Program-made: the position numbers and the translations under genes
Assembly (NCBI RefSeq): GCF_018873765.1
Contig: NC_057919.1
Span: 68,008,984-68,072,983, forward strand
Direction of reading: 5' to 3'
From: Telopea speciosissima
Lineage: Eukaryota > Streptophyta > Magnoliopsida > Proteales > Proteaceae
DNA: 64,000 nucleotides
In this document: positions 15,601-18,600 of the stretch, piece after piece
Layout: every line of letters begins with the position of its first letter
How positions within the stretch are numbered: position 1 is the stretch's first letter
The notes under the pieces: model-generated
What the model was told of the DNA's origin: nothing
The model's database searches: none
The model's input: only the letters and a program-made list of their open reading frames with translations

Positions 15601-18600
15601 CTTCAATCAGCAACTATGGTAGCATGAAATCTTCTATTGAATGAATGAATCCCAGCAGTAGTCTGGAACCTCAGTTGATCTCAGATTTGCAGGGAAATAA
15701 AAACCGGAAAAGAAACAAAGAAGAAAATAGAGAAGAAGGATAGGATTGAATACCCTTTAACTGCTGGCCAATAGATAATATCTTCCCCAAATAAGCTGGG
15801 TTGATGGGGGACTGAACCTGGACAGGTTGCTGTTCTCTTCTCTCAACCACCATTGATCTACATCACACAGGTGTTGCAAAATTGATAAATTTAAGTAAAA
15901 GCAGTAAGTTCTAGTCTTAGGTTTGAAAATTAGAAAAACTTCATAGACTCACTCAGTTCAATTTCTTTAAATTATACATTTCAGTTCAATTTCTTTCTGT
16001 CTCTTTCTCTCTCAGACTTCACTCTCTTAATCATACTTCTGCTATGCCTTTTCACCCAAGCAATTCCCCTGAAGCTCTAGCCTTCTAATCCCTCTTTTGT
16101 CCCCTTCTTTTTATAAGCCCTTCTCTGTCAACTTCAGTCCTTCTCTCTCAGATATCTCTTTGATCTCCTCTCTTTAATTTACCTCTCTCCTTATGCACCA
16201 CTCACTTCCTCCTATAAGTTATAACCCCTCTTCTGTTCTCCATTTCATGCACACCTACTTTACTACCTCTTCTCTCTCTCTTTTGTTTTCTTCTTATTGT
16301 TTTTTCTCAGTCTGCAATGGAACCTCAACAACACCCACAACAACAAATGCAGTGACAGCCACAGCCAAACGAAGATAGCAGCAGTAGCAGTAATAGCAAA
16401 GGGAACAACTTCCTTTGCAGGCAAAGGGAACCCCTGCTTCTGGTTCAGACCATAATATAATTTTCGATCTCTTCCCCCACTTGGTTTCCATCATCATACC
16501 TTCCACCCTAAGTGAAGAAACAAACACAGAAATTCCCTTTTTCAGCTTTTCATCTTCCAGTAGAGTTGGGTTCCTTTCCCCTATGGATAACCACCCCTCC
16601 CCATCTCATCTCAAACTATCCATGAGCTGAAGTTTAACATGTGAATAGAAATATTGGGTTCAATCTATTCACAAAATTTGGGTCCTAGTTGACAAATATT
16701 TGGCCATTACAGGAAAGGAGAGCTCTTATATATCCTCCTCTTCTTACATAATATACATATGATCGAGGTATATGAGATTAAACACAAGTTAAGTGGGGTT
16801 AAAATTAAAATTAGTAGGGTAAATAAAGGAAATGATGGGAGAAGTTACAGGGATTGAACTTCACCTACTTAAATTAGTAGGGTAAATAAAGGAAATGATG
16901 GTCCTAATGCCTGTTGTGTGGCAGATCAATCCAAAATTTAGGGGCAGATAGGGCTAGAGAAAGATGATTTGGCTGCAAGTTTACGCAGGTCACCTGGTCA
17001 TATTTCAAGTTTCAGGCTTAATGGAGGTTGTGTAGCAGATCAGTCCAAAGAATTTTTTTTTTTTTTTTTTGGGAAATAACTGCAGATAGAGCAGCAACAA
17101 CCCTGCTATGGAATACCACCAAAATCTTCACCTTAGCAGACAATATAGAAACTAAAGCAAAGCCTAAAATAAGTTCAATAAATTTCCATACAAAATGACT
17201 TGAAAATAGTAAAAACTAAACCTTATTGGGAGATCAAAGAGGCTTCAAGTTGGTAATTGAACATAAAAAATCCCATACAACGAAACAAAGACAAGGAACA
17301 TGGGCTCTAAGCATATTCAAGGAAGCCACACAAGTGCCAAACAAATTACACTATAAAGTAGTAAATCAGTGAGCAAACTGATATAAAATTAAGCAAGCAA
17401 TTCTCAGTTTCACCATCACACTGCAACTTGTTACCATGTATGCTATAAAGTAGTAAACCAGTGACCAAGTCAATATAAAACTGATTTAAACTGATTTGGT
17501 CCAGTAAGTCCAGATTAATTAACTTTAATCTGTGTGTTTTTCTATGGTGAATAGAAGGTCAATAAGAACTCTTTTGATCAGGTCAAAGCAAACAAACCTT
17601 ATCCCGTAATCCAAGCCTATGGATCTCCACCCCCATAGACTCATGTCTGATGTTGCAGAATAAACAATTTTCCCCCTCCTTTCAAGGTCTAAACCATGAC
17701 TAGAGGGTTCTGGTCTTCATTGACTGCATTGTAGCTTCTTGCGTTCTAGTTTCATCATAGCTTATGTATGACATGCAAACCAATTGTTTTACTTTGTATT
17801 AAAAAAAATTGTGGGGCTGAAAATCAAACAAAACAAACAAAAAAAAAATTGTGAAAAAAACAATAAACTCCATATGCAGACAAGGAGTATTATTCTATCA
17901 TCAATACTATACATTTAATATCAAATATATTATTTCCTTCTTTCTTCAAGATTATATAGTTGCTTTTGAATGCTATTTGGTCATGTAGATCTTGGTATAA
18001 GATAAACTAAATTGTATACAATAATAATCAGACAAGGGGAAGAGACTGATTCTCTATTTATTGCTCCTATTCCTATTCCTTTGATTTCATTAAATGGTGG
18101 ATTCTAGGGAAGCCAATGTGGCACACAGTAGAAGAACAGTTTAGAGATATAGAGGCACGTGGTATTGTTCCAAAATCAACGGTTTTTTTTTTGTTGTAAA
18201 TTCAGTCTAATTTTTCTTTTCACCACGATCTGCTTATAGTGTCAGCTGCTATCAGCGTGATGTCTATATCTTTTTAACTCCTCGAACTCTCATGTTGGGC
18301 GACAATTTCTTAGATATTCTTCCAGGTTCCAATGTACTGGAAAATAAAACCAGGCCCTCTTTTTTATGGACATTTGGATTCAGCTTTTCTCTTTAAAACA
18401 AAATGTATCAGGATATCTATGTTCTCATCTTCTAACTGCATTTGTTTCTTCTGTAGGTACTTGACACTGGATGAAGCTGACAGGTTAGTTGATTTGGGGT
18501 TTGAAGATGATATCAGAGAAGTGTTTGATCACTTCAAAGCCCAAAGACAAACTCTTCTATTCTCTGCCACCATGCCCACAAAAATACAGAACTTTGCCAG

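Follow-up and report, generated by a model that had tools for sequence, protein, structure and literature searches.

The stretch of DNA analysed here (hereafter the window) comprises 64,000 nucleotides of the Telopea speciosissima genome (C4:68008984-68072983) and was compared with the whole assembly of 822.9 Mb in 1287 contigs. It contains a DEAD-box helicase gene, for which the name RH35 was given in the original prediction, with two exons that join into one open frame encoding the Pfam domains DEAD, Helicase_C and zf-CCHC. The 7842-bp GT-AG intron between them harbours, as predicted, a fragment of a WUSCHEL (WUS) gene in the sense orientation, and this fragment is embedded in a truncated transposable element (Table 1). 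Elsewhere in the window (52567-56663, + strand) are two long open frames that resemble a Ty1/copia retrotransposon by reading of their translation.

Table 1. Features of the helicase intron and its surroundings in the window; WUS positions are relative to the ATG.
Feature	Position	Strand	Remarks
DEAD-box helicase gene (RH35)	9695..19318	+	exon 1 9695-10614, intron 10615-18456, exon 2 18457-19318
Non-autonomous PIF/Harbinger-type element, right end lost	14163..18060		blocks common to other loci; relatives run on past 18060
Left target-site duplication TAA (right one gone)	14160..14162		from comparison with relatives
Left terminal inverted repeat GGTAGCGTTTGGTTGAAGG	14163..14181	+	
Backbone left of WUS piece	15367..15947		also in WUS-less L023-L026 (L025 and L026: right part only)
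Captured WUS1 piece	15961..16423	+	from about -365 to +113; takes in promoter side and leader and ends 2 bases after codon 37
TATAA motif	16112..16116	+	lines up with TATAAG of both genes (WUS1 -214, WUS2 about -224)
Broken WUS N-terminal reading frame	16317..16424	+	ATG 16317; TGA = codon 13, 16353-16355
Two GCAAAGGGAAC copies, 25 bp apart	16396..16431		starts 16396 and 16421
Backbone right of WUS piece	16424..17514		common to L009, L010, L012, L015

The source of the fragment was identified by searching the genome with 15900-16700, as had been proposed. This returned 43 matches, one of which is an intact WUS gene (WUS1, matched at C5:15381003-15381483; C5:15.38 Mb) with a homeodomain in its first exon and the motifs TLPLFP and SLELSLNSY in its last. 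A second WUS gene of the same genome (WUS2) lies at C4:11.947 Mb, and the first exons of both genes match the Pfam homeodomain. Upstream of the ATG, WUS1 and WUS2 (loci L011 and L020) are alike at 81.6% over about 300 bp of leader and promoter side, TATA motifs included; the stretch taken by the transposon is thus one that is conserved between both genes.

Alignment of the fragment with WUS1 gave an identity of 94.8% over 481 columns when indels are counted (E reported as 0.0) and of 98.5% when only substitutions at 461 positions are considered. The match of 463 bp is sharp at both ends and stops at codon 37/38 (...FLCRQ). A WUS-type N-terminus with a TGA at codon 13 had been predicted here and the frame reads as described. 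This stop falls within a CAGCCA repeat, and the site is CGA in six other copies that cover it and CCA in L010, which fits a single C-to-T change relative to CGA; the CpG count in the WUS1 segment is 1. The TATAA motif may represent a working TATA box. The extent proposed in the original prediction (15990..16640) needs correction at both ends: the WUS piece already starts at 15961, and 16424-16640 is transposon sequence common to other copies.

The similarity had been predicted to stop at the second GCAAAGGGAAC, before the homeodomain, and this point proves to be the junction between captured and transposon DNA. The first GCAAAGGGAAC is WUS1 coding sequence and the second was created by the capture junction, where WUS1 reads AGGCAGAG, copies without a WUS piece read AGGCAGAAGG and the window reads AGGCAAAGG, with a microhomology of AGGCAGA. 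A by-eye reading in which WUS similarity ran on past 16423 was discarded: the alignment stops there and element backbone comes next, and when 15000-17999 was aligned no WUS1 similarity was seen beyond 16423 or elsewhere in that interval. No Pfam match was obtained for an antisense frame at 16297-16605. WUS1 is the source of the leader and N-terminal codons of the fragment but, unlike WUSCHEL itself (WUS1; Arabidopsis WUS homeodomain, PDB 6ry3), the fragment has no homeodomain, carries a stop at codon 13 and has lost codons. It is therefore not a WUS gene and, judged from its sequence, the window copy does not encode a WUS protein.

The ends of the element were found through its other copies. 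A left end common to many of them, GGTAGCGTTTGGTTG in the window from 14163 and GGGCGTGTTTGGTTG and similar elsewhere, lies beside TAA or TTA. When 20 loci were scanned for ends, two of these loci being the WUS genes, both ends were located in six (L009, L010, L017, L018, L019 and L026); in the other 14, the two WUS genes among them, at least one end was missing from the stretch examined. All six two-ended elements, about 3.9 to 6.1 kb long by their coordinates, are flanked on both sides by equal 3-bp TWA duplications (TAA or TTA) and have short terminal inverted repeats of the GG...GTTTGG type. Such ends and duplications are those of PIF/Harbinger transposons, and five of the six elements (all except L026) enclose a WUS piece between both terminal repeats, which is the configuration of a Pack-PIF. 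The WUS-less copies L023-L026 carry the sequence of window 15367-15947, in whole or in its right part, followed by about 900 bp of other sequence and then by that of about 16419-16567. When the genome was searched with the left end, 196 candidates came up; each of the 40 scored had a match of at least 92%, so the element family is large. Between its two ends, the L018 element also contains a fragment of a protein kinase (L018:3668-4168, + strand; Pfam PK_Tyr_Ser-Thr, E 6.1e-11), and L021 has a similar frame; other host genes have thus seemingly been captured by the family too.

In the window copy only the left end of the element is preserved. L012, L018 and L021 continue in common sequence past 18060, where similarity to the window stops, and the right end is accordingly lost; for this reason a matching pair of target duplications cannot be demonstrated for the window copy itself. 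Because the right end is missing, no element ends emerged when inverted repeats were sought in the window intron by itself. Neither a transposase nor a Myb/SANT frame is present in the window copy. Just inside its left end, units of 45 and 55 bp are repeated in tandem (CTGTTTGGTTACCCTGGGTC..., 14261-14403), and its left arm contains a tRNA-like sequence (14778-14856, - strand) with an odd four-base anticodon call. A tRNA-like sequence is found in the left arms of seven of ten loci scanned (L009, L010, L012, L017, L018, L019 and L022), and it seems that a tRNA gene was also picked up by the element.

Pieces of the WUS1 5' region are present at 33 or more places in addition to WUS1 and WUS2. This count is based on a search with the WUS1 5' region that gave 46 matches, the best 40 of 42 candidates having been scored; WUS1 (one match), WUS2 (three) and five short matches of about 30-55 bp were removed and four second pieces were merged. 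Two of the 33 places, 2.8 kb apart on C9, may belong to one element. The site of the ATG is spanned in 13 of the 33. The suggestion that upstream control DNA had been included holds, as the WUS piece reaches left to -365 in the window, to about -486 in L009 and L016 and to -278 in many copies. An A>C change and a 6-nt deletion relative to WUS1 are each present in all eight copies that cover them. The right junction is identical in the window, L010, L012 and L015, and the left junction at -278 is identical in L012, L018, L019, L021, L022 and the transposase-bearing L027, while L013, L014 and L017 have a different right-hand end in common. L009 has lost 25 bp between its two GCAAAGGGAAC copies (near 5099, oriented), a sign that this repeat has recombined. 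The shared marker changes and junctions favour a single capture event, although the changes could also derive from an older WUS1 allele that was captured more than once. A T>C change found in all seven other covering copies is absent from the window, and the window copy may consequently be the closest to the capture. In a tree of the copies none of the eight inner branches was well supported by the mark of the tool itself and seven were drawn open.

Some relatives bear a transposase. In L027, an open frame of 414 aa encodes a DDE_Tnp_4 domain (E 7.8e-25) and a separate frame is of Myb/SANT type (Myb_DNA-bind_3, E 1.4e-14), the pair of frames carried by autonomous PIF/Harbinger elements. A WUS1 piece from -278 to -121, which includes the WUS1 TATA motif, precedes the transposase ATG of L027 by about 158 bp and is inverted with respect to the transposase. 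Alignment revealed the same arrangement in 11 of 11 fetched copies, L027 included, with the transposase N-terminus read in nine of the ten others (not in L032), and a twelfth place matches in part. Six transposase frames were read to the end, of which two are open (L027 and one of 417 aa at C5:61.98 Mb) and four broken; stops were seen near the start in four further copies. A complete transposase-bearing element at C4:58.71 Mb (C4:58709575-58717364) could be read from end to end. It is 7790 bp long, has short terminal inverted repeats and TAA on both sides, and matches both L027 and the left end of L009 (89.6% for the latter).

The position of this piece raises the possibility that PIF/Harbinger elements took over the WUS core promoter, that it helps to drive the transposase, perhaps in the shoot stem cells that give rise to germ cells, and that the lineage bearing it beside the transposase multiplied accordingly. 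In addition to the constant arrangement, the motif TTATAA, which reads alike on both strands, is kept in all 11 copies, and copies with the piece are 94-98% identical to L027. Eleven other transposase matches (one further short match being excluded) are 75-93% identical to L027 and stop before the piece, and no WUS1 piece was found in the kilobase read beside the transposase in the five that were fetched; these WUS-less relatives suggest that the piece was added later. One of the five (C11:2.942 Mb) has the WUS piece of L016 at a distance of about 2 kb, and a WUS piece lies about 7 kb away from another transposase match (C6:2.132 Mb), so absence beside the transposase is not absence from the neighbourhood. 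Other observations tell against a promoter function. The piece is inverted and short, comprising a core region, and many of the frames that it would serve are broken as described above. Within the piece-bearing lineage variation is 2.7% in the WUS piece, 2.0% in the spacer and 3.8% in the transposase part, so that the piece is no less variable than the spacer, and no constraint on it was found from this diversity. Pairs of WUS-less copies are up to 95% identical, and the lineage with the piece is therefore not the sole close-knit one, nor is youth exclusive to it. On balance we regard both the promoter role and the takeover that it implies as unlikely.

Three other origins of the window fragment were weighed, all of them compatible with boundaries close to the 5' end of a gene: a retrocopy, the decayed remains of a third WUS gene, and a segmental duplication, which the original prediction had offered beside transposon capture. 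The match to WUS1 breaks off sharply at either side, which leaves a segmental duplication unsupported; the piece moreover extends into promoter-side DNA, does not reach the homeodomain and sits in a mobile element common to other loci, and any of these three origins is highly improbable. Capture by a transposon, in contrast, is supported by both flanks being shared with other copies of a terminal inverted repeat element with TWA duplications. Pack-MULEs and Helitrons often carry gene fragments and one or the other had been suggested as the carrier. The duplications are of 3 bp and not the 9-11 bp that accompany the ends of a MULE, inverted ends and target duplications are both present where a Helitron has neither, and the DDE_Tnp_4 transposase has a Myb/SANT partner; it is thus hardly conceivable that the carrier is anything of that kind. 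A different question is whether small RNAs arise from the copies and act on WUS1 by way of the promoter and leader sequence common to both, or whether the copies compete with WUS1. Near-identical sequence at so many places would be suited to this. WUS is, however, essential for the shoot meristem. A review, in its available part, describes captured sequences in maize that act as siRNA reservoirs and can silence both the donor gene and related elements, and makes the effect dependent on the importance of the donor (PMC13317346). An action of the copies on WUS1 seems rather improbable to us.

Almost certainly, then, as read from the sequences compared, a PIF/Harbinger-type transposon took a piece of WUS1 and multiplied it, and the window holds one right-truncated, non-autonomous copy that is probably without effect. 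About 600 bp of WUS1 (at least about -486 to +113, that is promoter side, leader and the first 37 codons) would have been copied into the interior of the transposon, probably via template switching at a short shared sequence during gap repair. The transposase of the family would then have multiplied the WUS piece along with the element, and different copies would have lost different parts of it. The window copy, in sense orientation in the helicase intron, would have been truncated at its right end later, and it is most likely spliced out with the intron and has no effect.

Gene capture by PIF elements is already in print. Pack-PIFs, a Pack-TYPE class, have been described in maize (PMC8903248) and, as far as the available part of that account goes, resemble the elements described here in having PIF-type ends around captured host gene DNA, in being non-autonomous and in having multiplied by transposition. 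They differ in that the donor here is WUS and the captured DNA is largely promoter side and leader, that transposase-bearing relatives also carry part of it and that the window copy has lost one end. In grapevine, PIF elements with transduplicated sequence (PMC2528002) likewise have TAA/TTA duplications, a transposase with a second ORF and captured host sequence in several copies; the families and donors are other ones, and the accessible portion of the paper mentions neither WUS nor a promoter piece beside the transposase. No report of WUS captured by a transposon was found among the matches listed in a search of titles and beginnings of abstracts of open-licence papers. What is special here is that the donor is a master stem-cell gene and that its promoter-side and leader part was taken, and also the trimmed core-promoter piece beside the transposase of a lineage that has multiplied.

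A consequence for annotation is that reads or primers from the WUS leader may map to at least 33 other places. More generally, donor, intermediates and transposase-bearing relatives are visible in one genome, and together they illustrate the spread of a master developmental gene's control region by a transposon. Two questions are thereby made testable, namely the use of captured host promoters by transposons and the silencing of an essential donor by the pieces captured from it.
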